Shown: piece by piece, positions 5,499-64,000 of the stretch | Layout of the letters: each line of letters opens with the position of its first letter | How positions within the stretch are numbered: the stretch's first letter is position 1 | Assembly (NCBI GenBank): GCA_020809425.1 | Contig: JAGGDC010000002.1 | Span: forward strand, 386,334-450,333 | Length of the DNA stretch: 64,000 nucleotides | Source of the DNA: Candidatus Synoicihabitans palmerolidicus | Lineage (GTDB): Bacteria > Verrucomicrobiota > Verrucomicrobiia > Opitutales > Opitutaceae | Direction of reading: 5' to 3' | Translations under genes and position numbers: made by a program | The notes under the pieces: model-generated | What the model saw: the letters and a program-made list of their open reading frames with translations, nothing else | Told to the model about the DNA's origin: nothing | Database searches by the model: none

Positions 5499-6920
5499 AT
5501 ACGCTTATCCGGCGCTGAAAACGCCCACGCCACCATCGCTCCCGTATCTCGGCCCGAACACCTTGTGGGTGCCGCCGTCAACACGAGGTGAGCATTCGTC
5601 CCTCCAAACCCAAACGCATTCACTCCGATACACCCCGATCGGGCCCAAGCCCGCGTGGGTTTCGCCATGACAAATCCCGCCGCCTCCACTTGGGGTCGGC
5701 TCTCCGGCGCTCCGGGTTGTCCAGAAAGCCTCCCCTCCCGCAGACTCAACGCACCTTTGTTCAACGAGGCCATTCCAGCCGCCGCGACGGCGTGACCGAT
5801 GTGGGCTTTCACCGCCCCTAATCCCACCGGCCCGCGCTTCAACACATCCGTAAAATGTCCCCTCAACGCTTCCAACTCAACCCGATCCCCCACCGGAGTC
5901 GCGGTCCCATGTGCTGCGACGTAGGCCACGTCCTTGGGGTCGCGTTGAGCATCCTTCCACGCGTCCGCCAAAACCGCCCTTTGGCCGGTCCCCAGGGACG
6001 TGAACGGACCGCCGCCCTTGCCGTCGTTATTCACCGCCATGCCTTCAATCACGACCACAATGGGATCGCCGTCTCGTTTGGCATCTGCCCACCGTTTCAA
6101 CACCACCATCCCCACGCCTTCCCCCAGCACGAATCCGTTGGCGCGTTCCGCAAAGGGCAAACACTCATCGGTGCGCGATAACGCTCCGACCCGACTGAAA
6201 CACACCATCATCATCGGATCCAACAAGACGTAAACTCCCCTCACCAGAGCCGCATCGACTTGCCCGGATCTCAGGTGCCCCACTCCTTCATGCAACGCGA
6301 CCAAGGCCGAACTGCAGGCCGTATCCACCGTTAAGGCCGGTCCCGTAAAATCAAAGGCCTCACTCACATTCGCCGCGATCATGTTCAATTGCTGACCCAC
6401 GATCGTGTATTCCGAAACCGCCGGCACTGCCGCCGACAATCCCATCTCCTCTTCCTCACTCAGTTTGAGTCCCGTGCCCAACCGGCCGGCCAAACTCTGA
6501 GACAGATTTACGGGTGAGCTGACCAGCGTCCGATGATCGGAGGAGGTCGCCCCGACATTAAACCCCCGTGCGCCCGCGGGCCAAACGCTGCCTGCGGTAG
6601 CCAGCGTCGTCCAAAGCTTGGCGAGCGGTTTCCAGCACCAACCGCTGCTGCGGGTCCATAATTCGCGCTCGTTTCGGCGACAGGCCAAAATACTCCGGAC
6701 AAAACTCCATCATTCCGTCCACAAAACCCGCCTGTTTTGCAGGTGTATGGTTGGTACTCGCCCGCTCCGCCCTATAAACGAGCTGGTGATTCCAACGCTC
6801 CGCGGGCACCGGCTGGAACGCGGTCCGCCCATCCGCCAACATCTGCTCATACGCTTCCACGTTGATCGAACCAGGACATCGACCTGCCATTCCGATAATT
6901 GCGATAGAATCGTGATTCAA
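5495..6920 (-). pseudogene. Modular polyketide-type ketosynthase, frameshifted
   Basis: Start ATG 6920: MNHDSIAIIGMAGRCPGS is a typical KS N-terminus, followed by FCPEYFGLSPKRARIMDPQQ. A frameshift near 6570 separates this from the main body. The catalytic triad is visible: Cys in VDTACSSALVAL, His in AAHGTATPVGD and His in VKAHIGHAVAAAG, then FGFGGTNAHLVL. The KS would extend an acyl chain on the downstream ACP before release by the oxoamine synthase. Its sequence is of the modular type I PKS class rather than FabF type. Downstream of NAHLVL the linker is disturbed. The KS-ACP-AOS order resembles proteins that end a polyketide with a decarboxylative amino-acid condensation. Confidence 0.8.
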
Positions 6921-24395: not shown

Positions 24396-25629
24396 ATGGA
24401 GCGTCGCGTAGCCATCACCGGGCTTGGCTTTATTAGCCCCATCGGAAACAATCGACCCAGCGTCACCGCCCACTTGCGGGAGCAACGTCACGGGCTATCG
24501 CCCGTCAATTGGTTCCCCGACTGCGCCATCCGCCTGGCCGGCACGATCCACGACTTCGACCTGAGCTCCTTGCAACGCGCCGTATGGACCTATCCCGATC
24601 GCGACGAGATTTCCCGCGAAACTCTGCGCAGCCTGCCTCCCCACGGAGTCTACGCACTCTGCGCCATCGAACAAGCGCTCGCTGAGGCCGGCCTCTCACC
24701 GCCGAGCTCCAGGACGGCCAGACGGGCCTGTTCTGCGCTTCGGCCGGATCTCCTCGTTTTTTCCGTCATCACCTCAACGCGGTCGAAAGTGCCGCCGGCC
24801 AACGTATTGCGCCGTGGGGGGTCGTGACTTCCATTGCCGGTACCCTCAATTTCAACCTGGTTGCCCACTTCGGTATTCAGGGCGCGGTAACCGGCTTCAG
24901 CTCCGCCTGCGCCGCCTGCACCCATGCGCTGGGCTACGCTTGTGACGAGATTCAACTCGACCGTCACTAACGCATGATCGTCGTCGGAGCCGAAGAACCC
25001 ACTTGGGAGTCCCTACTGCCTTTCGCCAGTCCGACCCGTTGCTCGCGTCCCGTCCCTTCGACCAAGGCCGCGACGGTTTCGTCGGCTCCGGCGGCGCTGT
25101 CGCTCTGATTCTCGAGGATGCCGCGGTCGCTTTCAATGCGCGGCGCACTTCTCTTGTCCGAAATCGCGGGTTGGGGACAATCCTCCGACGGCCACAGCAT
25201 CGCCCAGTCTCAACCCCAAGGTGCCGGCCTCGAACGAGCCATCCGTCGCGCGCTCCATGCTGCTCAGGTCACCGCATCAGACATCGACTACGTCAACGCC
25301 CACGCCACTTCCACTGGTGTGGGCGACAAAGCCGAAGCCCTCGCCCTCCTGCGCATATTCGACACCCATCGCCCGCCAGTCAGCAGCACCAAGGCGCTCA
25401 CTGGTCACCCCTTGTCCATGGCTGGTGCTCTCGAAGCCACCCTTTCCACCTCTGCCTGCAAGAGGGATTCATCCCGGGCAACGCCCATCTACGTCAGCCC
25501 GACCCGGTGTGTACGGCTCTCAATCGGCCAGTGGCAAACCTCTCGACGCGTCCCAACTTCATCCTGAAAAACAGCAGTGGCTTCAGGGGTAGCAATGTCT
25601 GTCTAGTACTTCGCCAACCTCGTTCCTGA
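24396..25629 (+). pseudogene. FabF/FabB-like beta-ketoacyl-ACP synthase, multiply broken
   Basis: MERRVAITGLGFISPIGN is a classic start. Catalytic residues remain visible in fragments: Cys in GFSSACAACTHALGYA, His in VNAHATSTGVGDKAEA, and Lys/His in SSTKALTGHPLSMAGALEA. A TAA (24968-24970) interrupts QLDRH-stop-RMIVVGAEE and at least four frameshifts (near 24705, 25015, 25110, 25450) separate the pieces. Length ~410 residues when joined. It follows the ACP by 20 bp and presumably extended acyl chains on it. Confidence 0.8.
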
Positions 25630-38795: not shown

Positions 38796-39391
38796 ATGGA
38801 TATTAGGCAGGTGCCACCTGCCGCCGAACTCTATGCTGAAAACATTGCGCTAAAGGCGGAACTGGCGCAGCTCGATGCCTTGATCGCTTGGCTCAAAAAG
38901 CAGATGTTTGGCGGAGGAAAGAGTGAAAAACTCGATCCCGCGCAGCTGCAGATCAAGCTGTCGGACCAGCAAAAACTGGCGGCAGCGGGCCAGGGCACCG
39001 AGCGGATCAGTTACGAGCGTCGCCGCGCTTCACAGGAGAAACGGCTCCTGCGCGCGGAGACGTTTGCGAAGCTGCCGGTAAGCGAAACCATCGTGATCGA
39101 GCCCGCCGAAGTACAGGCCGCGCCGGAGCAGTATGAGCGCATCGGTGAAGAGCGTAGCTTCGAGGTCGATGTGGTGCCCCCGAAGTTATTCAAGCGCGAG
39201 TTCGTGCGTCCGAAGTATCGGACCAAGGGCAACCGCGATCTGGCGCCGGTGGTGGCGCCGGCACGGGTGCGCCTAGTCGAAGGCGGCTTCGCTTCGGCCG
39301 GACTGTTGGCCTGGGTGCTCTACTCCAAATACGTGGAACACCAACCGCTGTTCCGGCTCGAAAAGGCGCCCTTGCGCTGGGGCGCTCAGTT
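38796..39391 (+). pseudogene. IS66-family transposase (TnpC), 5' fragment
   Basis: Leucine-zipper-like start (AENIALKAELAQLDALIAWL) and the IS66 hallmark KKQMFGGGKSEKLDP, then FKREFVRPKYRTKG and SAGLLAWVLYSKYVEHQPLFRLE. The zinc-finger Cys residues usually found between these blocks are not evident. The reading frame is homologous only up to ~39391, where another insertion element begins; its catalytic DDE part does not reappear beyond that element, so the gene was already truncated. Confidence 0.85.
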
Positions 39392-41226
39392 AGAGCGTGT
39401 CCCATTTACCCTGATGTTGGAAGGGGGACAGGAAAGCCGATTTTTGAGCGGATTTCCGACTACCAATGGCGGATGTAGGCGCGCGCAAATGCAATTTAAT
39501 GGCTAAATTGCAGTGTCGCAGCAGTCAGTGCCTGGATCGTTTCCATGAGGGAACCTCCGGCAGCCGGTTTATTGTTCATCGTTGGAGTAGGCTTGGTGGT
39601 TTTAGGCGGCTTGGGCCTGCGGTGGTTGGTCGGCCAGCAGTCGGGCGATGAGCCACAGGTTGTGACCGAGGATGCTCCAGGCTACCGCCAGGTAGCGATT
39701 CGTGAAGCCTCTGGCACTCAATCGCTTGCCTGGGCGTTGCTTGATGATGGCGATGCGGGCTTCCGTCGAAGCCCGGCGATGTTGGAGCGCCACGAACTGC
39801 GGCTCCTGCATGCGCCGTTGCAGCTGCTGCGGATCGCGGGGGCAAGTGGCGTCATAAAGGTCGGCTTCGGCCAAGCGTTCGCACAGCCGTTTGGTCGAGA
39901 AGCCTCGGTCGGTGCTCGCCGCTTTGATCGGGGTGCTCAGGTCGAACTGATTCTGGCGCTCGAGGCTCTGGTCGAACTGACGCCATTCGGCCGGAGCCAT
40001 TCCCTGATACAACTGCCAATCGGTGATCAACCCCGTCACGTTCTCACTGATCATGAGGGTGTTGCCAAACTCGACCTCGCCGGACGCCTTGCCCCGGACC
40101 ACGGTCTGCACGTCGGGTTCGTAGACGCTGAGGATCTTCTCGGCGTTGGGCACTGGTCGCGCGCCGATGATGCGTTCGTGGGCCTGGTTGATCGCGGCCG
40201 GCAGTTGCTCGAGCATGGCGTCGATGCGCGCAATGATGCGGGTGGGTGGCCTGGCGCTCATTGAAGCGGGTCCGAGCGTAGTCGGCGGCGAGGTGGTCGC
40301 GGTGGCCGGCGGGCGTGCTCGCCGATGGGTGCGCAGCAGGTATTTCATCTGGCGGAGCACGCCCTTGCGGGCCCGCTTCGCATCGCGGCGCCGGTCGGCT
40401 GTGGGTCATCGCGATGCACCACCGATTCATCTGCTTGGCAAAGACTGGCGGCTCGTTCGGCATCCGACCCCCGCAACCCCGCTGCACGGATCAGTTTCAC
40501 CGCCTTGAGCAGGGGGGGTGCGGCTCACGTCGCGAAAGAGCACCCAGTCGACCGGGAAATGGATGTTGGCCTGCAGGCAGGTCGAGTCCACCAGGCACGT
40601 ATCCATCGGCTGCGCCGCAGCCAGTCCCAGTTCGCTCGCCCGGTCCGCCTCACCGCACATCTCGATAAAGACTTGGCTCATCCTGCGCACCTGCCCGGCG
40701 GTGTAGCATTTGGACGCACGCTCCCGCACGCTTTCTTTGGGAGACCCCCTTGATGCCGTCGATCCGGCGCGCTCCGCAAAAGTCGGCCAACAGATCGCTG
40801 GAGGCGATGCTCAGGGAAAGTTTACGCAAGCTGATTTTTCCGAGTATCATGCGCAATATCTGCACCCGCCGCGCCTTGCGCGCGAACTGCAGGTGTCGCG
40901 GCAACCCGGCCACGTCGTCGCCCCGCCAGTTTTCCCGGGCAAAGTCCACGGCCATCGCTTCCAAGTGACTGTTGGCCAGCAACTGGTCGAGCCCCGCCAG
41001 TTGATCGCGAAACGCGGCGTAATCTTTGTTGGGGCCGACCGGAGTCAGGTCTGGACGCAGCCAGGTTTTCAGGGCAACTTCCGGGGCGACAGCTTCGGTA
41101 GTATTGTTCACACCAAATTACACACGCCGTTTTTGTGCCGAAACCAGGAAATCCTCCCGGTGTCGGCCTCTTTATTTTTACGCTACCTCCTATTCTCCAA
41201 CCTCTTGCGCTTGTGGGACACGCTCT
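39392..41226 (-). mobile_element. DDE insertion sequence with perfect terminal repeats and AGTT target duplication
   Basis: Terminal inverted repeats AGAGCGTGTCCCA (39392-39404) and TGGGACACGCTCT (41214-41226) are perfect. Both sides are flanked by AGTT (39388-39391 and 41227-41230). Left neighbour is the IS66 fragment, right neighbour the interrupted ADOP permease, so these two were already joined before this element landed. About 1.84 kb. Confidence 0.85.
39602..41111 (-). pseudogene. DDE transposase of the 39.4-41.2 kb element, frameshifted
   Basis: N-terminal part LAGLDQLLANSHLEAMAVDF and RRVQILRMILGKISLRKLS. After a shift near 40740 come the first catalytic block MDTCLVDSTCLQANIHFPVDW and VLFRDVSRT; after another near 40500-40360 the second (VRGKASGEVEFGNTLMISEN, KAASTDRGFSTKRLCE) and third (QHRRASTEARIAIIKQ, Glu), ending YLAVAWSILGHNLWLIARLL. 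This is a DDE enzyme of the broad IS5/IS1182/ISNCY type; I cannot name the family with certainty. Confidence 0.75.
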
Positions 41227-41230
41227 AGTT

Positions 41231-41850: not shown

Positions 41851-42207
41851 TCAGTCGGCTTTGGCCAGCACTTCACTGACCGCGCTGGTAAGCCGCTCCC
41901 CACTGACCGCGCTGGTAAGCCGCTCCCAAGATTCCCTCTCCGCCACCAATTGCTTACGTCCCGTGCGCGTTAGCTTATAAAATTTCGCCCGACGATTGTT
42001 TTCCGACACCCCCCACTCCGCTTCAATCCACGCCGTGCGCTCCATCCGATAAAGCACCGGATACAACGACCCCTCTGCCACGCGCAGCGCATCCGCCGAA
42101 AGCACATGAATTTTTTGCGCGATGCCACATCCATGCATCGGGCTGGCGTTTAACACCCGGAGAACCAGTAGGTCCAGAGTGCCTTGGAGGAGTTCGATTT
42201 TGCTCAT
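41851..42207 (-). CDS. PadR-family transcriptional regulator
   Basis: 118 residues, winged helix-turn-helix: LLQGTLDLLVLRVLNASPMHG, EGSLYPVLYRMERTAWIEAE, NNRRAKFYKLTRTGRKQL. Such small PadR proteins sit upstream of ADOP permeases and repress them; the gap here is 37 bp. The C-terminus contains a perfect 27-bp tandem duplication (41874-41900 and 41901-41927), giving RLTSAVSGERLTSAVSE. The frame survives with nine extra residues in the dimerisation helix. Confidence 0.88.
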   Translation of the reverse strand: MSKIELLQGTLDLLVLRVLNASPMHGCGIAQKIHVLSADALRVAEGSLYPVLYRMERTAWIEAEWGVSENNRRAKFYKLTRTGRKQLVAERESWERLTSAVSGERLTSAVSEVLAKAD

Positions 42208-47432: not shown

Positions 47433-47462
47433 ATCCGGCGATGATCTGGACTCCCACCCTAG

Positions 47463-48791
47463 TTCTACTTAGTTAGATGGAGGTAGGCCGACGGCAATGC
47501 GTTTTCGCCGCTCGATGTCGCGTGCTCTGAGCCGGTGCCTGGCGGTGATATTGGTGAGGATTGCCGCCTCATCGAGGCGCTTGCGAGGCAGATAGTAGTC
47601 GAGCAGTTCGGTGATGTCGCGCACGCTCAGCAGCGGGACCTGGGGATGCACTTGGGTGCATAATTTTGGGGAAAATAGCAGGGCCATGGCAACCAAGGCC
47701 ATGTGATGATGCCAGCCGGGCCAGACCCGCACCTACCTGATACTGTGCCATGCCCAACTGGCTCTTCGCTTCGTGGAAGGCATGTTCGATCCAGAAGCGC
47801 TGGGCCTGTGCCCAGGCATAGTGGGCCCACGACCGGCCGGCCGGCCGGTTGCTCAGGCTGTATTTGAAGCTGTTATCTGCATCGCGTCGGATGAATCAGT
47901 AAACGCTCTCGTGGCTCCTGTGTGCCTGGCTCCCAGGTCCATACGGTGCTCACCCAGATCCATGAGTCCACACTCCCCCTTGGTGCCTGAGCGGTATTTG
48001 ACCCGTTGGTGTGCCGACTCGAAGTGCTCCTGGGCCAATGCTTCCACGCTGCGATACTGTGCGGTGTTGGCCTCGCTGAGCCGCTAGTTCTTCGCGGGTC
48101 GTCCCCGGCCCGCGCGCGGTTTCTCCAGGGTAGTTGTTGCGTCCATACCTCTTGGTCGTCCTGGCCACATCGCCCACAAAGCGCTCCCCCAGGTCTTCGA
48201 CCGCGTTGAGCAACTCGCGCTTGCTGCCATACAGGCAGTCGAAGCCGACCCAACCAAATCTCAGGCCCTGCTTGCGCGCGTGCACGATCATCTCCCAGGC
48301 CTGCTCGTGTTTTGGTTTTATGCACGCGGCATTGCTCCGGCACCTTGGCCTTGTCCAGTCTCGCCAAGTCCTGCGTCCACGCCTCCGGCAGATACAGACG
48401 AAAATCAGTCAGGCACACCCGCGTATCGCGCCCCAGGCAGGCGTAGACTCCGACTTGGCAGTTTTCAACCTTGCCCGCCCGGACCATTGGCGCTGCACTT
48501 CCACCGACGCGTGGCCCTTTTTCAAAAAACTGCTCTCGTCGATATACAGACCGGCAAGTTTTTCATCGCCGAACAATGTGTTGGCGTCGCAGGCTACTTG
48601 GTCCATCAACGAGTGGTGATCCCAGAACGATGAACTGATGAACCGCTCAAGACCTTGATAATCACTGCCTTTCACATCCTACCCGATTACCTCAATGTTT
48701 TTTCGCCGCTGCGTGCCCAGCAGCGCCACTGAGGTAGTGGCGCGCGTGCCCCACGCTGTTCATCCCCCAGCCGATATTTAACTAAGTAGAA
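47463..48791 (-). mobile_element. IS701-family insertion sequence, copy A (5'-deleted, frameshifted)
   Basis: Ends TTCTACTTAGTTA / TAACTAAGTAGAA; flanked by CTAG on both sides (47459-47462, 48792-48795), the 4-bp duplication typical of IS701. Transposase pieces on the (-) strand: DYQGLERFISSSFWDHHSLM, LAGLYIDESSFLKKGHASVE (first catalytic Asp), GWVGFDCLYGSKRELLNAVE, LPRKRLDEAAILTNITAR. Several frameshifts. Compared with copy B ~160 bp between the terminal repeat and IGWGMNS-coding DNA are missing, removing the transposase start. Confidence 0.85.
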
Positions 48792-49040
48792 CTAGTCAGC
48801 AACTCTCGAACTCCCTGCCCATCAATCGGCCGCACACTCCATTCCCCGCCCCGCAGTCAGACGGCGAAACCGCGCGCCAGACCCATCAAACGAGGGCTTC
48901 GCCCCATAATCCAACCGCCGAAAAACCCCATTTCAAACCCCGGAAACAAACGCCAACGCACTCAGTTCCCGCTGCTGTTTTCAAATTTCCCATTGACAGC
49001 CCGCCCCCTCGCCTGAAACACTCGCTTTAGGTTCTACTGA

Positions 49041-49160
49041 GGGGTAATTCTGTGATGTATGTCGTCTGAGGCGCGAGACTGCTTCTCGGCACATTCGCGA
49101 TCCCTTTTCATGTGAACCTGATTCGGTTAATACCGGCGTAGGAAAAGGAATCATTACCCC
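49041..49160 (+). promoter_or_regulatory. TPP riboswitch with a possible alternative pairing
   Basis: Contains the THI-box core TGAACCTGATTCGGTTAATA followed by CCGGCGTAGGAAA, and on the 5' side GGGGTAAT with GTCTGAGG (the GCTGAGA-type element). P2 would be GGGGT (49041-49045) with ATCCC (49100-49104). Downstream, ATTACCCC (49153-49160) is perfectly complementary to GGGGTAAT (49041-49048), so it can compete with P2. It controls the TonB receptor starting at 49219, which points to thiamine or a precursor as substrate. Confidence 0.88.
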
Positions 49161-49218
49161 AATATTTCTGTTTCGCGCCCAATGGCCGGGTCTCAAATCC
49201 ACACAAACTTGAGATAAC

Positions 49219-52200
49219 ATGAAACCCTTCCCATTAGCTGCCCTCGGTAGCCTCTCCGCGCTCATCGCCTCCGCAATGTTCGCCCAATCCCTGGCATCCG
49301 ATCCGGTCAAACTCGACCCGCTCGTCGTCACGACCGACCCGCTCGTCGTCACGACCGACCCGCTCGTCGTCACGACCGACCCGCTCGTCGTCACGACCGA
49401 CCCGCTCGTCGTCACGACCGACCCGCTCGTCGTCACGACCGACCCGCTCGTCGTCACGACCGACCCGGTTGACTGGTCCCCCGAACTCTCCCGCACCAGC
49501 ACGTCCGCCACGGTGCTTTCCACCGAACAACTGACCGCCAACGGCAACACCGACTTCGGCGATTTCGTCAACGTTACGCCCAATCTGGCGTGGTCCGGCA
49601 GCACTTCCCGGGCCCGCTACTTCCAAATCCGCGGCATCGGCAACAAGAAGGGCTCCCAATTCGAGGGCGACTCCTCCGTGCGCGTCCTCATCGACGATCT
49701 CGATGTCACCGGTCCCGCCGCCGCCGCCCTCTTCGATATACAACGGGGCGAGGTCCTGCGCGGTCCTCAATCCGGTGCCTTCGGCGCCAATGCCGTCGGC
49801 GGGGTCATCAAACTCGTGACCGCCGACCCCACTCCGTTCTGGACGGGTTTCGCCGAGGCCACGGTCGCCAATAAGAATCTGCTCTCCACCGGTTTCGCCG
49901 TCGGGGGTCCGCTCACCGGCATCGCCTCTTTCCGGGTCTCCGCCCAGCGCACCACCGCCAACGGTTGGCGCCAAAACGCCTCCCTTAATCGCAAGACCAC
50001 CTTGGCCACCCAGGCCGCGTCGGTCGCCCAGGCCGCGTCGGTCGCCCAGGCCGCGTCGGTCGCCCAGGCCGCGTCGGTCGCCCAGGCCGCGTCGGTCGCC
50101 CAGGCCGCGTCGGTCGCCCAGGCCGCGTCGGTCGCCCAGGCCACCGCCGCCATCAACACCGCCAGCGCCATCGCCAGCGTCATCGCCGCCAACACCAAGG
50201 CCACCGCCACCACCACCGCCGCCACCGCCACCGCCACCGCCGCCGCCGCCGCCAAGGTCGCCACCGAGGCCACCCTCGCCATCCGCCACATCAACAGCGT
50301 CCTCAACAGCGCCATCCAGATCAACGCCAAGGCCGAGGACACCAGGGCCGACAAGGCCAGCGAGGACGCCAAGGACGCCCAGGTCATCGTCATGGCCTCC
50401 ACCTTCGCCGTCGCCGAGGCCGTCGCCGTCGTCGACCGGGCCAAGGTCGACGCCGCCAGGCACCACCGCCTCGCCAGCCAAGCCGCCCGCCTCGCCAACC
50501 AAGCCGAAATCGCCAAGGAGACCGCCAAGGCCAAGGCCAAGGCCAACGCCACCAACACCAACAAGAACGCCGTCATCAACGCCACCGTCAAGGCCATCAA
50601 CGCCACTGGCACCGCCAGTGGCCACGCCAGCAACGCCGAGCACGCCGTCGTCGTCGTCGCCAACGTCACCGCCAACGCCGACGCCGTCAAACTCGCCCAC
50701 GTCGCCGCCAAGGCCGACTACCGAACCGCCATCCTCACCATCCGCGGCGCCGCCATGACCGCCGCCGCCGCCGCCGTCCAGGCCACCGCCAACATCGAGG
50801 CAATCAAGGCCGTCAAGGCCGTCAAGGCAGTCAAGGCAGTCAAGGCCGCCGCCACCGTCCAGGCCGCCATCGCCGCCAAGATCAGCCAGATCGCCTTCAC
50901 CCCCGAGATCGTCAACACCATCAAGGCCGCCAACATCACCCGGGCCACCCGAACCGTCGAGGCCGCCGAGGCCGTCGAGGCCGCCGAGGCCGCCGAGGCC
51001 GCCGAGGCCGCCGAGGCCGTCGAGGCCGCCGAGGCCGCCGAGGCCGCCGAGGCCGCCGAGGCCGCCGAGGCCGTCGAGGCCGCCGAGGCCGTCGAGGCCG
51101 CCGAGGCCGCCACCCTGGCCGCCAAGACCAAGGCCCTCGACGAGACCAACGTCTACCTGCGACTGCGCCTCAACCCCATCGCCGCGTGGCAATGGGACGC
51201 GGCCTTGCTCTACTCCGACCAGGATGCCAACTACAACAAACCCTCCCGCGAGAACACAACCAGCCACGACATCCAGGAATCCACCGCCAGCAGCCTCAAG
51301 GGGGTCTACACGGGCGAAGTCCTCACCTTTACCACCAAGACCGCCTTCACCTCCACCTCCTGGACCGATGCTGTCGATTACCGCTTCCTCAAACCCCTGC
51401 ATCGGCGCAAGCTATTCAATCAGGAGTTACGTATCAACTCTCCGGCCTCATCCCCCGCGCGCTGGACGGTCGGTGCCTACTACGAGTCGCTCGCCGATAG
51501 CTCCTCCCTCGCCGAAATATTCGCCGACTCGACCGCCATCTCGGCCACCGCCATCTCGAGAACCGTCACCAAGGCCGTATTCGGTCAGTGGGAACAATTC
51601 ATCGCCGACCGCACTCGTCTCACCGTTAGCCTGCGCGCCGAAGACTACGATCACTCGACCGATATCACGCGCATTCACACTCCGCCACTCTCCTACTCCG
51701 ACTCCGACATGCTCGTCGGCGGCGAGCTCGCCCTTGAGCATGCCCTGACCGAGCGCACGTTGATCCTCGCCTCCATCACCCGCTGCTACAAAGTCGGTGG
51801 CGTCAACATCTACGACTTCTTCGTCAGGCACGACGCAGACACTACCATCTACGATACCAAGATCATGTGGAACACCGAACTCGGCTTCTGCACCCGCTCC
51901 GCCGACGGACGCTTCTCCGGTGAAGTCCTTGCCTTCTACCTCGGCTCCTCCGCCGGCTATGGCGCCGAGGCCAGCGTCCGGGCCCAACTCTCCGATCGCT
52001 TCTCCACCTACGGCAGTCTCGGAGTCATGATATACGACCTCTACCAGACCGCCACCCCCGCCGCCGACGTCGTCAACGCCGCCACCTACGCCCCCGCCGC
52101 CAACTACTCCCTCGGTGCCCGCTACGACTTCGGCCACAATCTCTGGGCCAGCGCTGAGTTCAGTGGCCGGTCGTCTTACTTCATGTCGAGCAACCACGAC

Positions 52201-52413
52201 AAGACCCGCAGTCTCTCCAACGTCGTCAACACCAGCGTCGGCTACCGCCACGGAGCGTGGAGCGTGACCCTCTGGGCCCGCAACCTCCTCAACGAACGCA
52301 ACGATGGCCGCGTGTTCTACTTCGCCAAGGTCGGCTCCACCTGGAACATCGACCCCCGCAAGCCCTCCGCCGCCCCCCGCCAACTCGGCGCCACCGTGCG
52401 GTATTCGTTCTAA
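49219..52413 (+). CDS. TonB-dependent receptor, probably for thiamine, with amplified TonB box and Ala-rich insertion
   Basis: 1064 residues, open throughout. Signal peptide (LAALGSLSALIASAMFAQS), then the TonB-box-like heptad DPLVVTT seven times in a row (res ~33-81), plug domain (TSATVLSTEQLTANGNTDF, YFQIRGIGNKKGSQFEGD, DIQRGEVLRGPQSGAFGANA), first barrel strands to NGWRQNASLNRKTT, then ~374 residues of Ala-rich low complexity (res ~265-638), then the barrel resumes at ALDETNVYLRLRLNPIAAWQ and ends in RQLGATVRYSF with terminal Phe. Without repeats it would be ~650 residues. TPP-riboswitch control suggests thiamine uptake across the outer membrane. The rest of the barrel is shorter than usual near 51930. 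Confidence 0.9.
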   Translation: MKPFPLAALGSLSALIASAMFAQSLASDPVKLDPLVVTTDPLVVTTDPLVVTTDPLVVTTDPLVVTTDPLVVTTDPLVVTTDPVDWSPELSRTSTSATVLSTEQLTANGNTDFGDFVNVTPNLAWSGSTSRARYFQIRGIGNKKGSQFEGDSSVRVLIDDLDVTGPAAAALFDIQRGEVLRGPQSGAFGANAVGGVIKLVTADPTPFWTGFAEATVANKNLLSTGFAVGGPLTGIASFRVSAQRTTANGWRQNASLNRKTTLATQAASVAQAASVAQAASVAQAASVAQAASVAQAASVAQAASVAQATAAINTASAIASVIAANTKATATTTAATATATAAAAAKVATEATLAIRHINSVLNSAIQINAKAEDTRADKASEDAKDAQVIVMASTFAVAEAVAVVDRAKVDAARHHRLASQAARLANQAEIAKETAKAKAKANATNTNKNAVINATVKAINATGTASGHASNAEHAVVVVANVTANADAVKLAHVAAKADYRTAILTIRGAAMTAAAAAVQATANIEAIKAVKAVKAVKAVKAAATVQAAIAAKISQIAFTPEIVNTIKAANITRATRTVEAAEAVEAAEAAEAAEAAEAVEAAEAAEAAEAAEAAEAVEAAEAVEAAEAATLAAKTKALDETNVYLRLRLNPIAAWQWDAALLYSDQDANYNKPSRENTTSHDIQESTASSLKGVYTGEVLTFTTKTAFTSTSWTDAVDYRFLKPLHRRKLFNQELRINSPASSPARWTVGAYYESLADSSSLAEIFADSTAISATAISRTVTKAVFGQWEQFIADRTRLTVSLRAEDYDHSTDITRIHTPPLSYSDSDMLVGGELALEHALTERTLILASITRCYKVGGVNIYDFFVRHDADTTIYDTKIMWNTELGFCTRSADGRFSGEVLAFYLGSSAGYGAEASVRAQLSDRFSTYGSLGVMIYDLYQTATPAADVVNAATYAPAANYSLGARYDFGHNLWASAEFSGRSSYFMSSNHDKTRSLSNVVNTSVGYRHGAWSVTLWARNLLNERNDGRVFYFAKVGSTWNIDPRKPSAAPRQLGATVRYSF
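49315..49461 (+). repeat. Seven identical 21-bp tandem repeats encoding a TonB-box-like heptad
   Basis: Each unit encodes DPLVVTT; all seven are identical at the DNA level and stay in frame. The heptad closely resembles the TonB box of BtuB (DTLVVTA). The array starts where a single TonB box is expected. Confidence 0.95.
50011..50136 (+). repeat. Seven identical 18-bp tandem repeats (QAASVA)
   Basis: Unit CAGGCCGCGTCGGTCGCC, repeated perfectly seven times in frame, at the entrance of the alanine-rich insertion of the TonB receptor. Confidence 0.95.
50803..50847 (+). repeat. 9-bp repeat tract (KAV)
   Basis: Five near-identical units of (A/G)TC AAG GC(C/A), encoding IKAVKAVKAVKAVKA, within the Ala-rich insertion. 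Confidence 0.85.
50956..51111 (+). repeat. GAGGCC(G/C)-type microsatellite (EAA/EAV)
   Basis: About 156 bp of GAG-GCC-GCC and GAG-GCC-GTC triplet groups encoding (EAA/EAV)n, res ~580-631 of the TonB receptor. Nearly pure, so probably unstable in length. Confidence 0.9.
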
Positions 52414-52542
52414 AAGCCCCCTTCCCTCCGCAGGGGCGCACCCACCGTGCGCCCCTGCTTCGCCACCACCGCCTCACCGCCCCCTCAAATACAAACACAG
52501 ACCGGTTTGCCTTTTGTCCCCTATCGCGTGTCGTCAAAAACC

Positions 52543-53144
52543 ATGCAGGTTTTTGCACTCATCTCTTCCGAATGGCGCCGCCGCATGATCTTCATGGGAA
52601 TGATGCTATGGGGCTCTGCCCTGTGGTTCGCCTACGAAGGCTACATCGCCTGGCCCGCCGAAGCGGAACGCTACCAAACCCTCGTCGAACTCACCACCGA
52701 CCTCGTGCCGGAAGGCAAAAAGGCGACCGACAAAGTTCCCGGCGTGAAACGCGCGTGGGAAGCCTACGCCGCCCAAAACGACCTCAAGGCTTAAACTCTC
52801 CAAAAACCGCACCGCCGGTGACCTCGCCGGCCAACGCGGAATCTTCGGCGTGCTGCTGGTCATCGCCACGACCTTCACCCACCATCTGGGTGCTCCGGCA
52901 ACATCGCCGCAGTGTCCGGGCCGACGGCGACATCATCGCCGGAGCCAGCGGCGAAAAAGTTCCCCTCGATAAGATCATCGAAATGGACCGCCGTAAATGG
53001 GCGTCCAAAGGCGTCGCCTACTCCATCTACACCGATGACCAAGGCAAACGCCGCCGCCTCTGCCTCGACGACCACAAATTCCTCGGCTGCGAAGCCATCA
53101 TCCTCGAAGCCGAAACCCGCATCAAAGCCCGCTCCCCGAGCTAG
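52543..53144 (+). pseudogene. Two-helix membrane protein, frameshifted
   Basis: MQVFALISSEWRRRMIFMG starts a protein with a first helix (MMLWGSALWFAYEGYIAW) and a soluble loop to YAAQNDLKA. A shift near 52790 gives AGDLAGQRGIFGVLLVIATT (second helix) and, after a 4-bp-type insertion near 52885, SVRADGDIIAGASGEKVPLD, IEMDRRKWASKGVAYSIYTD and KFLGCEAIILEAETRI, which look like a conserved soluble domain. About 200 residues when joined. Family not recognised. Confidence 0.55.
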
Positions 53145-53288
53145 CCCCCCAGCGCCCGCACGTCAGCAATCTGATCCATCAACGGACCCCGTATGCAATG
53201 CGGGCTTCACCGACACCGCCGAGAAAGTACCGTAGCGCATTCTCGCGTGAGTGCTCCCGCACATCCTGTAATTTTCCTCCAGCTCCAG

Positions 53289-53322
53289 CTTCAGCAACCT
53301 TTACATCCGAAAGGGGCTGAAG
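53289..53322. other. Strong hairpin before the HsdM remnant
   Basis: CTTCAGC-AA-CCTTT pairs with AAAGG-G-GCTGAAG around ACATCCG: 12 bp with one small internal loop. No T-tract follows. It may be a transcript-end or island-boundary structure. Confidence 0.4.
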
Positions 53323-53376
53323 CCTAATCCCGCTCAGTTTCGCCCGGCGCTAGCCTCGCCGTGTTTATCCCTACCT

Positions 53377-53664
53377 ATGTCCCAGACATCCAACAACCTC
53401 GCCGCCTACAGCTGGTCCCTCGCCGATCTTCTCCGGGGTGATTTCAAACAAAGCCAATACGGCCGCATCATTCTGCCGTTCACGCTTCTCCGCCGACTCG
53501 AGTGCGTGCTCGCCGAGGTCTATAAACTCGCGCCGCAAAACCTGCCCGAGGAGGCCCTCGAAAAACTGCTCCTACGCGCCACCGGCGACCTCTCCTTTTT
53601 CCACACCTCGCGGATGGACCTCGCAACTCTCGGCGAGTCCGACAGACGGCCAGCAGCGCATTGA
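53377..53664 (+). pseudogene. hsdM: Type I restriction methylase HsdM, N-terminal remnant
   Basis: [20 protein letters not shown] followed by [17 protein letters not shown] is the HsdM_N signature. The frame ends after ~95 residues; no methyltransferase motifs (NPPF) follow. Marks the left side of a decayed defence island. Confidence 0.85.
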
Positions 53665-53699
53665 GGTCGTCTTCCGCGGAGTGAAACGCATCTAAGGCC

Positions 53700-54315
53700 A
53701 AGCCAAGGGCGACTCCAATTAGCTCGTGACATGAAACACCGAGAACACCGACACCAGTGCGCTGCCGCTCAGCCTGATCATCCCGGTGGGCGCCAAGTCG
53801 GTGTCAGCGATCGAGACCCAAGTCGGGCCGATTCTCGCGCGAGGTCCGGGTGATCGCTGGCTGGAGGTGGGGTTCAACGCCGCTCGCGCCGCAGGATGGT
53901 TCGCTGGCGTGGAAGGAAGAGCGCGCGTCGTAGTTCCACACTCCCCGGCAATGCTGGGTCGAGGTCGATTACTGCAACTACCGGCAGGCCTACCAGCGCT
54001 GCACCCCGAACCTCGTCCTCAAGGATTTTGTCATCGACCACATCCTGAACCGCCGCCTCGCCCGGGCATTGGGCTTTCGTTACATCCGCCTCCTCCACGT
54101 GAGCCGGGGCGTAAACTCCAGCAGTGGCCAGGGCTCGGAGTCCGATGTGATCAGCTACCAAACCCCCCGAGGGCCTAAACGCCGAGCGCTTCAAAGAATC
54201 GCCCCACCAGATCTTCTACGCCGCCCCCGATGACCTCCTAAAAATGCTCAACATCAAAGTCGGCGCCTTCCCCCTCAATACCCTCCGCGACCACCTCCAC
54301 CTGTTTTACGGCTGA
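53700..54315 (+). pseudogene. Remnant of an unrecognised protein of the defence island
   Basis: Pieces in different frames: TDTSALPLSLIIPVGAKS, VEVDYCNYRQAYQRCTPNLV, LKDFVIDHILNRRLARALGF, RYIRLLHVSRGVNSSSGQGS and finally LNAERFKESPHQIFYAAPDD with KMLNIKVGAFPLNTLRDHLH up to TGA 54313-54315. The order looks like one gene of ~190 residues with at least three frameshifts. No family recognised. Confidence 0.45.
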
Positions 54316-54447
54316 TGACTCCCGCTCGCGAAGTTCAATCCTTTGGGAGGACGAGTCTGGGGTAAACGGGTCCTTGATTTAGTCAGATAAATTGGGTTAA
54401 CTTCTGACGAAACAACTTCGCCGAAATGAAAAAACACGCTGATTCCA

Positions 54448-54840
54448 TTACAGCGCAAAGCCAACGGCCCGCTCTTCCCGACCGGAGCCCATGCGGCCAA
54501 TTTCCTCCGGCTCAATGACCAGGTGCCTGTGCGCCCGTGGCATTTCACGACCGGCGCCAGTCGCCGCAGCCGCTACGGGCCAAAGGGACAAGTCGTGCTC
54601 CAACACGTGTCGCCCCGTTTCGTCTCCACCAAGAACCGTCAAAGCGCCCTGGTCATCCTCGCGCTGCACTGCATTGGGAAGCGCTCGGTGGACGCAGATA
54701 TCATTGCCCGTCTCCGTCGCAATCTATCCGACGCGGATCGGGCCGCTTTGCCCGCCGACGCGGCGTGCGCGCCCGCTTGGATCGCCGAGATCTTTCCCCA
54801 ATTGGCGGCACCTCCCCCGTCGGCCCCCTCCCATGGATAA
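54448..54840 (+). pseudogene. AbiEi/DUF6088-type antitoxin, 5'-truncated
   Basis: LQRKANGPLFPTGAHAANFL, VPVRPWHFTTGASRRSRYGP, VLQHVSPRFVSTKNRQSALV and DADIIARLRRNLSDADRAAL follow the C-terminal part of AbiEi-like (DUF6088) antitoxins. The N-terminal winged-helix region and start codon are missing. Its TAA overlaps the ATG of the toxin gene (54833), as expected for the AbiE operon. Confidence 0.7.
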
Positions 54841-55860
54841 GTTTCTCGCGTTGTCTGCCGACCGCCGCCGGGACGCCTGCATAGAGATGTATCAGGCGAT
54901 GCAGCTCGATGCGGCCAGCGTAGAGAAGGATTTCTGGGTCTGCTGGACTTTGCGCGAGCTGTTCACGCTTCCGGAAATCGGCGAGTACCTGACGTTCAAG
55001 GGCGGCACCTCGTTATCAAAAGCATGGGGACTCATTGCCCGTTTGTCGGAGGATATTGACCTGGTCGTGGACAAAGCCGCGCTCGGTTTCGCCGGCGACC
55101 GCGCACCTGATCAGGCGCCCAGCAATAAAAAACGCCGGGCCCGGCTCGAAGCACTCATGGTGGCTGCTCGTGACTGGGTGCAACAGCGCCTGCAACCCGC
55201 GCTCGACGCTCGGCTCGAGTTGGCCGGTGGGCCCCACCGGCTGGCGCCTTGAGGTCGACCCCAACATGGCCGACGGGCAGTGCCTGCTGTTCCACTACCC
55301 TTCCGTGTTTCCCGGTGGCTACGTGGCTCCGGTGGTTAAAATCGAGTTGGGCGCGCGTTCCGACGATGGGCCCCCCGAAACCAAGAGCATTCGCCCCTAC
55401 GTCTTTGGAACACTTCCCCTTGATCGACGCGGATGCCGCGTGCACGGTGCAGGTGCTCGCCGCGGAGCGCACGTTTTGGGAGAAAGCCTGTCTGTTGCAC
55501 GAGGAGACATTTCGCCCGGCCGACAAACAACGAAAACATCGCATGGCTCGCCACTACTACGACCTGTGGTGTTTGCTGCGCGCTGGCGTCGGCGAACGTG
55601 CGTTGGCCGACACGGCCTTGTTCCAACGCGTGACAGAACACCGGGAGATCTTCTTTCTGTATTCGTGGGTCGACTACACCACCCACCAGCCCGGCACCTT
55701 CCGCCTCGAACCACCGGCGACGCATCTCGCCAACTGGCGCAACGATTATGCGGACATGCTCGGTCCGATGTTTTACGGCGACGTCACGACGTTTGACGAC
55801 ATGATCGCCGCCGCCACCGATTTCGCCCTCCGTTTTAACGCCACCGCGCCGAAGGTCTGA
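54833..55860 (+). pseudogene. AbiEii-type nucleotidyltransferase toxin, frameshifted
   Basis: MDKFLALSADRRRDACIEM, then VEKDFWVCWTLRELF and the NTase core TFKGGTSLSKAWGLIARLSE followed by DIDLVV (GGTSLSK and DxD metal site). Shifts near 55230 and 55405 lead to TGWRLEVDPNMADGQCLLFH, LAAERTFWEKACLLHEETFR and HYYDLWCLL. ~340 residues when joined, normal. AbiEii toxins transfer nucleotides to tRNA or other RNA and abort phage infection. Both toxin and antitoxin are dead here. Confidence 0.85.
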
Positions 55861-55883
55861 CTCGCTCCCCATCCAACCACCCC

Positions 55884-56018
55884 ATGACCGACCCCACCAA
55901 AGCATTGGCCTTTCAAAATGATGTGATCGCCGAGATGATCGCCGGCGGCTGGAAGCGCGGTCACGCCGGGCCTATCAAACCCAACTCCGGGCATAATCAT
56001 CAAGCACGCTGGGCGTAG
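55884..56018 (+). pseudogene. hsdR: HsdR N-terminal remnant
   Basis: MTDPTKALAFQNDVIAEMIA then GGWKRG matches the start of type I restriction HsdR subunits; it ends at TAG 56016-56018 after 44 codons. A second similar start is at 57146. Confidence 0.6.
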
Positions 56019-56107
56019 CAGCGCGAACTCCGGGCACGATGACAAACGGTGCTTAAGGCATCAAAGGCCAATCTTGCCATTTTAGCCAAAACAGGAACAT
56101 TCAGGCC

Positions 56108-56473
56108 ATGCCCAACGCCACTCCCGCTCCGCACGCCTTTGGTTTCGCCTCGGTCGCCGACTTGTCTGAGGTCACCGCCAGCGTCCTCAAAAACAAGTTC
56201 AGCGAGGTCTCCCGGCTCGCTTCCATCGCCCCGCTCGCAGTCTCCCGCCACAACCGCCGCGAGTTCGTCATCCTCACCGCCAAGCAATACGAGGAGCTTC
56301 AGCAAAGCCGTCGCGCGCCACTCGAAAGCCTCACCGCGGAGTTCGATCAGATGGTGGCCAAGATGAACACCTCCGCCGACCGGGCCGCTCGCCAGAGCTT
56401 CTTCAACGCCTCTGCCGTCAAGCCTAGCCCCGCCCTGGTTCAGTTGAAAAAAGCCCGAGCGCATGCCCGCTAA
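56108..56473 (+). CDS. Phd/YefM-like antitoxin
   Basis: 121 residues. The core VTASVLKNKFSEVSRLASIA ... LAVSRHNRREFVILTAKQYEEL follows the Phd/YefM fold (N-terminal DNA-binding and dimer part); the C-terminal ~55 residues are charged and would wrap the toxin. It overlaps the zeta-like toxin by 11 bp, which fits an autoregulated TA operon. Intact. Confidence 0.8.
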   Translation: MPNATPAPHAFGFASVADLSEVTASVLKNKFSEVSRLASIAPLAVSRHNRREFVILTAKQYEELQQSRRAPLESLTAEFDQMVAKMNTSADRAARQSFFNASAVKPSPALVQLKKARAHAR

Positions 56474-57113
56474 GTCCCGGCCCACCCTCACGATTCTGGC
56501 CGGCGTCAACGGCGCGGGCAAAAGCAGCGTCGGCGGTCAGGCGCTGCGTGAATCTGGCGCCGAATACTTCAACCCCGACGAGCATGCGCGTCGGCTCCGC
56601 GCCCGCCAGCCGACACTCACCCAACAAAAGGCCAACGCACTCTCCTGGACCTACGGCAAGGCCAAGCTCGAGGAGGCCATCGCCACCGGCGCAGACTTCA
56701 CCTTCGAATCCACGCTCGGCGGCAAAACCATCACGAACCTTCTGATTCAGGCCGCCCAAAAGAGTCACCAGATCGACATCTGGTTTGTCGGCCTTGCTTC
56801 CGTGGAGCTGCACCTCAAGCGCGTGGCGCACCGTGTCGCCCAGGGCGGCCACCCGATCCCCGAAGCGGATCTCCGCAAACGCTGGATTGGCAGCCACGAA
56901 AACATCATTCGCCTGATCCCCTTCGTGACCACGCTCCGGGTCTTCGACAACTCCGCCGAAGCCCCCGCCAAAGGCCCCCCGGAGCCCACCTTGCTGCTCT
57001 CCATCGAGGATGGTGAGTTGACCTATCCGGGCCCTGAAAACCTCCTCGACATGCCCACTTGGGTCAAACCGATCATCGCCGCCGCCTACAAGCATTTCGG
57101 CCTCATGGACTAG
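56463..57113 (+). CDS. Zeta-type toxin (P-loop kinase)
   Basis: 216 residues, intact. Walker A LAGVNGAGKSSVGG, FNPDEHARRL (substrate-binding Asp), FTFESTLGGKT, and the lid RVAQGGHPIPEADLRKRW with Arg residues, as in zeta toxins and related kinases that phosphorylate UDP-N-acetylglucosamine or similar nucleotides. Partner is the Phd-like protein just upstream rather than an epsilon antitoxin. It is the only undamaged pair in the 53-57.4 kb island. Confidence 0.85.
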   Translation: MPAKSRPTLTILAGVNGAGKSSVGGQALRESGAEYFNPDEHARRLRARQPTLTQQKANALSWTYGKAKLEEAIATGADFTFESTLGGKTITNLLIQAAQKSHQIDIWFVGLASVELHLKRVAHRVAQGGHPIPEADLRKRWIGSHENIIRLIPFVTTLRVFDNSAEAPAKGPPEPTLLLSIEDGELTYPGPENLLDMPTWVKPIIAAAYKHFGLMD

Positions 57114-57145
57114 GCTCAGTCTTTCAGCCTGCACGAGAAATCTCC

Positions 57146-57358
57146 ATGAGCGACCCCATCAAAGAATAGACCTTTCAAACACCGGAACTCAACAATCCCG
57201 ACCATTGGCTCTTCGGTATCTCTCCCGAAGGTATCGGCACCATCGGCATGATGCTCAACTTCATCGTCGCGCAAATCGTCGGCCGTTTCACCCCCGAACC
57301 CCCGCTCGAGGTGCAAAAGGAGGTCGAACAAATCCGTGTTCCTCGTCAGATCAATTAA
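57146..57358 (+). pseudogene. Junction relic: HsdR-like start fused to sodium/solute symporter C-terminus
   Basis: ATG 57146 opens MSDPIKE-stop-TFQ, close to the HsdR start at 55884 (MTDPTKA-LAFQ). The same frame continues as LNNPDHWLFGISPEGIGTIG, MMLNFIVAQIVGRFTPEPPL and EVEQIRVP, which looks like the last ~60 residues of a sodium:solute symporter. TAG at 57167. I read it as a deletion junction. Confidence 0.45.
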
Positions 57359-62069: not shown

Positions 62070-63550
62070 TTCTACTTAGTTAAATGTTTGACAGAACTAG
62101 AAGAGGCGACAGAGATTGGGACTCATCAGCCCGTTGGTCATCGGGGGGGGGCCTAGCTCTGCGGGCCGAAGAAAAAAATGACATTGCCGCTCTAATAGAT
62201 GCGGCCCGTGTGTTCGTAGAATTTTGCCACTCCTATTTACCGCACTTCATCGGCTGGGGGATGAACAGCGTGGGGCACGCGCGCCACTACCTCAGTGGGC
62301 TGCTGGGCACGCAGCGGAGAAAAAACATTGAAGTGATCGGGCAGGATGTGAAAGGCAGTGATTATCAAGATCTTGAGCGGTTCATTAGATCATCGCTATG
62401 GGATCACCACTCGTTGATGGACCAAGTGGCCTGCGACGCCAACACATTGTTCGGCAATGAAAAGCTCGCCGGTCTGTATATCGACTAGAGCAGTTTTTTG
62501 AAAAAGGGCCACGCGTCGGTGGGAGTGCAGCGCCAATGGTCCGGGCGGGCAGGCAAGGTTGAGAACTGCCAAGTCGGAGTCTACGCCTGCCTGGGGCGCG
62601 ATACGCGGGTGTGCCTGACTGATTTTCGTCTGTATCTGCCGAAGGCGTGGACGCAGGACTCGGCGAGACTGGACAAGACCAAGGTGCCGGAGCAATGCCG
62701 CGTGCATAAAACCATAACACGAGCAGGCCTGGGAGATGATCGTGCACGCGCGCAAGCAGGGCCTGAGGTTTGGCTGGGTCGGCTTCGACTGCCTGTATGG
62801 CAGCTCAACGCGGTCGAAGACCTGGGGGGGGGGGCGCTTTGTGGGCGATGTGGCCAGGACGACCAAGGTATGGACGCAACAACTACAACTGGAGAAACCG
62901 CACGCGGGCCGGGGACGACTCGCGAAAAACTATCGGCTCAGCGAGGCCAACCCCGCACAGTATCGCAGCGTGGAAGCATTGGCCCAGGAGCACTTCGAGT
63001 CGGCACACCAACGGGTCAAATACCGCTCAGGCACCAAGGGGGAGCTGTGGACTCGAATCTGGGTGAGCACCGTAAGTGGACCTGGGAGCCAGGCACACAG
63101 GAGCCACGAGAGCGTTTACTGATCATCCGACGCGATGCAGATAACAGCTTCAAATACAGCCTGAGCAACCTGCCGGCCAGTCGTGGGCCCACTACTATGC
63201 CTGGGCACAGGCCCAGCGCTTCTGGATCGAACATGCCTTTCCACGAAGCGAAGAGCCAGTTGGGCATGGCACAGTATCAGGTGCGGGTCTGGCCCGGCTG
63301 GCATCATCACATGGCCTTGGTTGCCATGGCCCTGCTATTTTCCCCAAAATTATGCACCCAAGTGCATGCCCAGGTCCCGCTGCTGAGCGTGCGCGACATC
63401 ACCGAACTGCTCGACTACTATCTGCCTCGCAAGCGCCTCGATGAGGCGGCAATCCTCACCAATATCACCGCCAGGCACCGGCTCAGAGCACGCGACATCG
63501 AGCGGCGAAAACGCATTCCCATCGGCCTACCTCCATCTAACTAAGTAGAA
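62070..63550 (+). mobile_element. IS701-family insertion sequence, copy B (decayed)
   Basis: Ends TTCTACTTAGTTAAAT / TAACTAAGTAGAA; flanks TTAA (62066-62069) and CTAA (63551-63554) both fit YTAR but differ by one base. 1481 bp, longer than copy A because it keeps the 5' part of the transposase gene. Confidence 0.85.
62084..63544 (+). pseudogene. IS701 transposase, nonsense and frameshifts
   Basis: DYQDLERFIRSSLWDHHSLM, LFGNEKLAGLYID then TAG 62486-62488 exactly where copy A has Glu (YIDESSFLKK); the frame continues SSFLKKGHASVGVQRQWSGR, ENCQVGVYACLGRDTRV and YLPKAWTQDSARLDK. Later shifts (near 62720, 62810-62835 with a run of G, 63060-63190) separate GWVGFDCLYGS and YLPRKRLDEAAILTNITAR. DDE fold of IS701. 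Confidence 0.85.
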
Positions 63551-64000
63551 CTAAAGCGTCTGAAAAAACACGAAGGTGAGAACAACGAAAATATGAATGC
63601 CACCTCAGTCTCGCTTCATCGCGCTTTCCCGGAGCACTCCTCGTTTTCTTCCCCTCGATCTCATCGGCTGATCAGCCCGAATGCATTGATCGAATCCGTC
63701 CAGCGGCTCCGCCCCAACGTTCGCGAATCCACGTCATTCCGTTTTCACCGGAAATCACGATGCTAAGAATTCGCGGCGAGAGAATCTCTCTCCTTCGCTA
63801 AAATGAAGTTAAACCCGTCTAATTCACGATTTTCAGCTTGAGAAATTCGCCCAATGATCGCCAAGGTGTTTACCACCGATGCGACTCCTTCGACGAATCT
63901 TCCGACGCCCTCCCATTCGCATGGGTATGGTCGAAGGCAGCCGACGCCGAAGCACGCCCATCCGTAACGCCGGGTTCGTCAGTTTTTTTAACGGTTCCGG
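63551..64000. other. No supported gene to the window end
   Basis: About 450 bp after IS701 copy B. An open frame of 57 codons starts near 63594 but has no recognisable features. I see no RNA gene or terminator. Confidence 0.5.

Follow-up and report, generated by a model that had tools for sequence, protein, structure and literature searches.

The window, a stretch of 64,000 nucleotides from the genome of Candidatus Synoicihabitans palmerolidicus, contains a gene for a TonB-dependent receptor whose N-terminal coding region carries a 21-bp sequence, GACCCGCTCGTCGTCACGACC, in seven exact copies arranged head to tail on the forward strand (starts at 49315, 49336, 49357, 49378, 49399, 49420 and 49441). 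The coordinates of the gene, its parts and the surrounding features are collected in Table 1. The N-terminal part of the receptor gave weak matches to solved structures of TonB-dependent receptors (E 3e-9 to 9e-3), and the top row of that structure search came from the repeat insert described below and looks like a chance match. A Pfam search of the receptor returned no match to a barrel family; its C-terminal VRYSF aligned with the ends of the orthologues. Modelling by AF2 with a four-sequence alignment failed for the barrel and overall (mean pLDDT 36.9). In the genome, 14 matches to the TonB C-terminal domain were found. An antisense ORF of 722 aa (49234-51402, minus strand) lies inside the receptor gene and probably arose as a side effect of the repeats and the composition.

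Table 1. Features of the receptor locus, in positions of the window
Feature	Position	Strand	Basis or remark
Segmental duplication, 9.7 kb	47455..57179		Other copy on contig C1, ~436.7-446.1 kb, reverse orientation
Insertion-sequence-like repeat, left end of duplication	47460..48775		DDE_5 transposase piece 47873-48487 (-)
Eroded 5' leader homologous to TPP riboswitch	49030..49161	+	cmscan 49097-49161; 5' part by alignment
TonB-dependent receptor gene, 1064 aa, open throughout	49219..52413	+	ORF, Plug domain, weak structure matches
Probable signal peptide, aa 1-22, MFA|QS	49219..49284	+	Inferred by eye
TonB-box array, (DPLVVTT)x7	49315..49461, exact periodicity up to 49467	+	Sequence, TRF
Plug domain, aa 91-196	49489..49806	+	PF07715, E 3.2e-13
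Ala-rich insert, 379 aa (aa 260-638); relatives have a short loop	49996..51132	+	Alignment, composition
18-bp array, 7.4 exact copies, QAASVA units	50009..50142	+	TRF
9-bp array, 5 copies, KAV units	50804..50848	+	TRF
9-bp array, 17.6 copies, EAA/EAV units	50954..51111	+	TRF
Remaining barrel	51133..52410	+	Alignment of the two copies

The TonB-box array and the Ala-rich insert

In the frame of the receptor ORF each 21-bp unit was translated as DPLVVTT, such that the N-terminal region reads VKL-(DPLVVTT)x7-DPVDWSPEL. The claim of an earlier note on this DNA, that DPLVVTT occurs seven times with identical coding sequence, was thus borne out, the count of seven being that of a single assembly. 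TRF reported the array as one row (49314-49467, period 21, 7.3 copies, 100% matches, score 308), and no further copy of the unit was found elsewhere in the window on either strand. Chance origin of the array could be excluded, because control DNA of ~115.7 kb, taken from this genome outside both copies of the receptor (see below), gave 4 TRF rows, none of which exceeded 2.5 copies. We also scanned the 23 plug-domain places of the genome by TRF, with 1.5 kb of flank on each side. Arrays of this kind were found at 2 of them, which are the two receptor copies; the other 21 loci together gave 3 TRF rows of 2.0-2.1 copies.

We then compared the receptor with its relatives. In 16 of 17 relatives a single box precedes a string of the type VTADLW, and the remaining row (G004) was misread and left out. 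A wider family search gave matches in 127 of 150 genomes, and 30 loci among the matches listed, the window included, were examined. Twenty-eight of the 29 relatives had a parsable N-terminus with one box each, as judged by eye, and one (L096) was left unparsed; the sets of 17 and 29 relatives overlap partly. Because the relatives show one box at the matching position, we take the repeated unit to be the TonB box, as the earlier note had proposed. The same note had asked whether the orthologues' box might lie elsewhere; the comparison instead placed their single box at the matching site, and it sets 7 units in the window copy beside 2 in the second copy. A scan of genome contigs returned two distant sphingomonad loci and no others, and no relatives of the receptor were found in viral contigs.

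Another feature of the gene is the Ala-rich insert, which lies between SLNRK and ALDETN and in the window copy holds the exact or near-exact 18-bp and 9-bp arrays of Table 1. At this same site the window receptor carries 379 aa (38% Ala) and the second receptor copy, hereafter the sister, 296 aa (47% Ala), yet the two sequences are unrelated. A comparable insert was found in none of the 27 relatives with a parsable loop, which have a few residues at the site (the loop of one other, L098, was unparsed). Judging from general receptor topology, the insert would sit in an extracellular loop. AF2 rendered it as four long helices with block pLDDT of 32-78, to which we attach little weight since they stand within an otherwise failed model. 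A search for the source of the insert returned, outside both receptor copies, two short weak matches that were not recognisable as similar inserts. We considered an ice-binding protein on the grounds of composition and rejected it, as an 11-residue period was not prominent in either insert.

Divergence of two recently duplicated receptors

A search of the organism's own genome identified the sister on contig C1, where it forms a fully open frame of 948 aa with two units of the 21-bp sequence. The two genes lie within a segmental duplication. A further copy of the insertion-sequence-like repeat at its left end was found at 62249-63553, inverted and 94% identical, and 3' of the receptor lie AbiEii pieces and a zeta-toxin-like/AAA_33 gene. 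The AbiEii toxin-like gene inside the duplication (54491-55860) is split across two frames. Elsewhere in the window we noted a ~1.8 kb repeat at 39388-41230, probably a mobile element, with copies on C1 that are 95-96% identical, and an exact 27-bp unit that occurs twice at 41874-41927.

Comparison of the two copies revealed that their differences are distributed very unevenly. The upstream flank contained 7 mismatches in 1764 positions and two single-base gaps, all in the insertion-sequence part. The signal and box region had 0 mismatches and an array that differs in length by 105 bp, and the plug had 2 mismatches in 528. The barrel, by comparison, had 36 mismatches over 1281 window bases and five gap events of 3, 15, 6, 3 and 9 bases, every one of them in frame. 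The downstream flank had 3 mismatches in 4766 and one 3-base gap, and the mismatch rate of the barrel was higher than that of the downstream flank, with an odds ratio of 46 (Fisher p 1.7e-21).

The barrel differences are nearly all protein-changing. In a separate codon alignment of the barrel, 33 codons differed by 41 bases, of which 32 codons were nonsynonymous and 1 was synonymous (dN 0.040, dS 0.012). When 41 random changes were simulated (5000 runs for each of three ts/tv ratios), one or fewer synonymous codons was never reached. The 32:1 excess of nonsynonymous change therefore points to selection for change and not to a raised mutation rate alone. It also disfavours recombinational import of a diverged allele, since synonymous differences would have come along with such an allele, and only 1 of the 33 changed codons is of that kind. 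Codon positions 1 and 2 held 38 of the 41 changes; seven codons were changed at two or more bases, compared to ~1.3 expected; and the changes, spread over ~950 bp, comprised 13 C/T, 12 A/G, 11 A/C and 5 others.

We likewise questioned whether the variation might be confined to variable loops, and this was unsupported: 23 of the 32 changed barrel sites fall at columns that are invariant in six orthologues of the genus, compared to 199 of the 389 columns without a change (p 0.034 by the Mann-Whitney test and 0.027 by the Fisher test). Over the 32 sites the sister agreed better with the orthologues at 15 and the window copy at 8; at another 8 neither copy matched them, and one site was a tie. The longest stretch that is present in all six genus orthologues and missing from both copies comprises 17 aa around YFVDNGKS, and more stretches conserved among these six orthologues are also absent from both. 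The stem branch leading to the receptor pair measured 0.46, compared to 0.06-0.18 for the genus orthologues. This long stem, together with the stretches lost by both copies, indicates that the receptor was already much changed before the duplication. The divergence of the pair itself is fast, and consists of in-frame repeats and differences that nearly all change the protein.

The TPP riboswitch, thiamin and the genome setting

A TPP riboswitch scoring above the Rfam cut-off was found ahead of the gene in 9 of 9 orthologue loci tested; in the same Rfam run, neither the window nor the sister leader scored above that cut-off. Both leaders scored 35.2 bits, the cut-off being 54.3, and no other TPP match was found in the genome. 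The window leader could be aligned with six leaders from the genus, but 6 bases are added in it at a conserved position and its 5' half is changed. We next asked about thiamin synthesis. No match to ThiC was found in 8 of 8 genomes of the genus, this one included, 6 of which are at least 90% complete; the same search found ThiC in 13 of 14 control genomes. HMP is therefore probably not made de novo in these bacteria, such that uptake would be needed. Given the riboswitches of the orthologues and the absence of ThiC matches, the receptor probably serves its genus as the receptor for vitamin B1 (thiamin), with the ligand read from genomic context. Given the changes at invariant sites, the lost conserved stretches and the eroded riboswitch, the pair may transport differently or poorly, and its history may include a loss of constraint.

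The source organism is likely a sea-squirt symbiont. Frames of 102-605 aa were found at 20 of the 23 plug-domain places of its genome, and frames of more than 900 aa at the two receptor copies and one other, which suggests a broad decay of TonB-dependent receptors. The short frames at these 20 places are in line with the published suspicion, voiced in the accessible text of the genome paper, that the genome has many pseudogenes (PMC8636102). According to the same text, the published Ca. Synoicihabitans palmerolidicus assembly comprises 10 contigs and 4.3 Mb, has five copies of the pal cluster and was built from PacBio CCS reads (PMC8636102). The word TonB is absent from the main text of that paper (PMC8636102). 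Completeness as computed here was 69.8%, compared to the published 96.0%. Near-identical ketosynthase-rich copies occur on several small contigs of the genome, and ketosynthase (PF00109) pieces in the window, at 6080-6911 and 24402-25003, lie in frames of 132-404 aa, 2 of 4 of which have an internal stop.

Origin and possible function of the array

The number of boxes forms a series of one in the relatives, two in the sister and seven in the window copy, with all units identical. We lean towards the view that this series reflects a recent, in-frame expansion of a single TonB box in a receptor on which selection acts to diversify it or to change its function. Origin of the array by expansion within a diversifying receptor is likely; that seven boxes in particular bring a selected benefit is possible but unproven. 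Under this model slippage or unequal recombination would make the repeats, selection would keep the reading frame open, and the receptor pair would be exposed to diversifying or function-changing selection. TonB presumably engages a single box at any one time, through strand addition. The plug-proximal box could then do the pulling, with the upstream boxes lengthening the periplasmic tether and offering alternative docking sites, so that array length could tune the ease with which TonB captures the receptor. Because a 21-bp unit preserves the frame, gain or loss of units by slippage would alter nothing but length and would not act as an on/off switch for the gene.

Decay is a real rival to this model, given the conserved segments that both copies have lost. 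If the tether tolerates any length, then the array and the insert may be functionless expansions, produced by neutral slippage in a gene that is losing constraint. The presence of several unrelated arrays in one gene, the altered conserved sites and lost stretches, the eroded riboswitch, the frame-keeping unit and the short frames at 20 of 23 plug places all agree with this possibility. However, relaxed constraint predicts a proportionate share of synonymous changes along with stops and frameshifts, whereas the barrel displays the 32:1 ratio and in-frame indels only, and both copies are fully open; we therefore regard it as possible but, on balance, doubtful. The array might instead be a selected device, in which more boxes would raise TonB capture or reach, for instance by offsetting a heavy insert. 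The perfect identity of the units, the contrast between seven and two and the single box of the relatives would fit such a device, but recent expansion predicts perfect identity equally well and the sister manages with two units, so that from the sequence comparison this role appears unlikely.

Two further explanations concern how the differences or the repeats might have been generated. An assembly artefact is conceivable in a metagenome-derived genome, as this one is if the identification is right. The copy differences are nonetheless codon-structured and in frame, unlike read errors, and PacBio circular consensus reads underlie the assembly as described in the accessible text of its publication (PMC8636102), making an artefact very improbable. 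Targeted mutagenesis, as by a diversity-generating retroelement, could account for the concentration of changes in codon positions 1 and 2 and for the surplus of multiply changed codons. We consider it extremely improbable and disfavour it, since the genome gave five reverse transcriptase matches, the best of them a group II intron maturase (TIGR04416), and since the changes are not confined to adenine, C/T forming the largest class, and are widely spread.

We compared the locus with known systems. BtuB, FepA and FhuA have one TonB box each, and we know of no long Ala-rich insert in any of the three. The window receptor has the TonB box and the plug in common with them, and the structures that its N-terminal part matched weakly include those of the pesticin receptor, FepA, FhuA and BtuB, among others. 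Bacteroides thetaiotaomicron belongs to a phylum other than that of the window organism. Putative outer-membrane thiamin transporters regulated by TPP riboswitches are described for Bacteroides in the accessible text of PMC5613172, and one of them, OMthi BT2390 of B. thetaiotaomicron, can be likened by description to the orthologues of the window receptor, which share with it a TonB-dependent receptor behind a TPP riboswitch (PMC5613172). Unlike OMthi BT2390, the window receptor has an eroded riboswitch, seven boxes and an Ala-rich insert, and has lost conserved stretches. In colicin B, the protein's own TonB box acts beside that of FepA, as the accessible text of PMC8546555 relates; two boxes thus serve one translocation, but each resides on a protein of its own, and they do not form an array within a single receptor.

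Surface proteins that vary through repeats are known in general, as are phase-variable receptors. What the window receptor has in common with them is a surface receptor gene with tandem repeats whose copy number differs. It is unlike phase-variable receptors, whose repeat number switches frame or promoter, in that its unit is a multiple of three, so that a change in unit number would affect length only; the 21-, 18- and 9-bp units are all frame-keeping. Our literature search, which covered tandem repeats, multiple boxes, linker length and Ala-rich loop insertions with most subscription papers outside its reach, found no description of a TonB-box array. The repeats named in the abstract of PMC2447325 are of 42 to 54 residues.

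To our knowledge, TonB boxes are regarded as single, spatially fixed motifs. A bolder reading, which we put forward tentatively and think rather unlikely, is that the receptor on which this symbiont relies for vitamin B1 is being rebuilt at great speed in two copies, in box number, in an Ala-rich insert of 300-380 residues and in conserved barrel residues, with the flanks standing nearly still; in that case the array would be the first known example of a transporter's energy-coupling motif that occurs in multiple and variable copies, which would tune the strength of coupling or the length of the tether. Taken together, the locus provides a copy pair that is unusual in that protein change far outruns flank change inside one recent duplication, and does so in a protein on which vitamin uptake probably depends. 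Related receptors that naturally carry one, two or seven boxes raise a direct question, namely whether tether length or box number is limiting for coupling to TonB.
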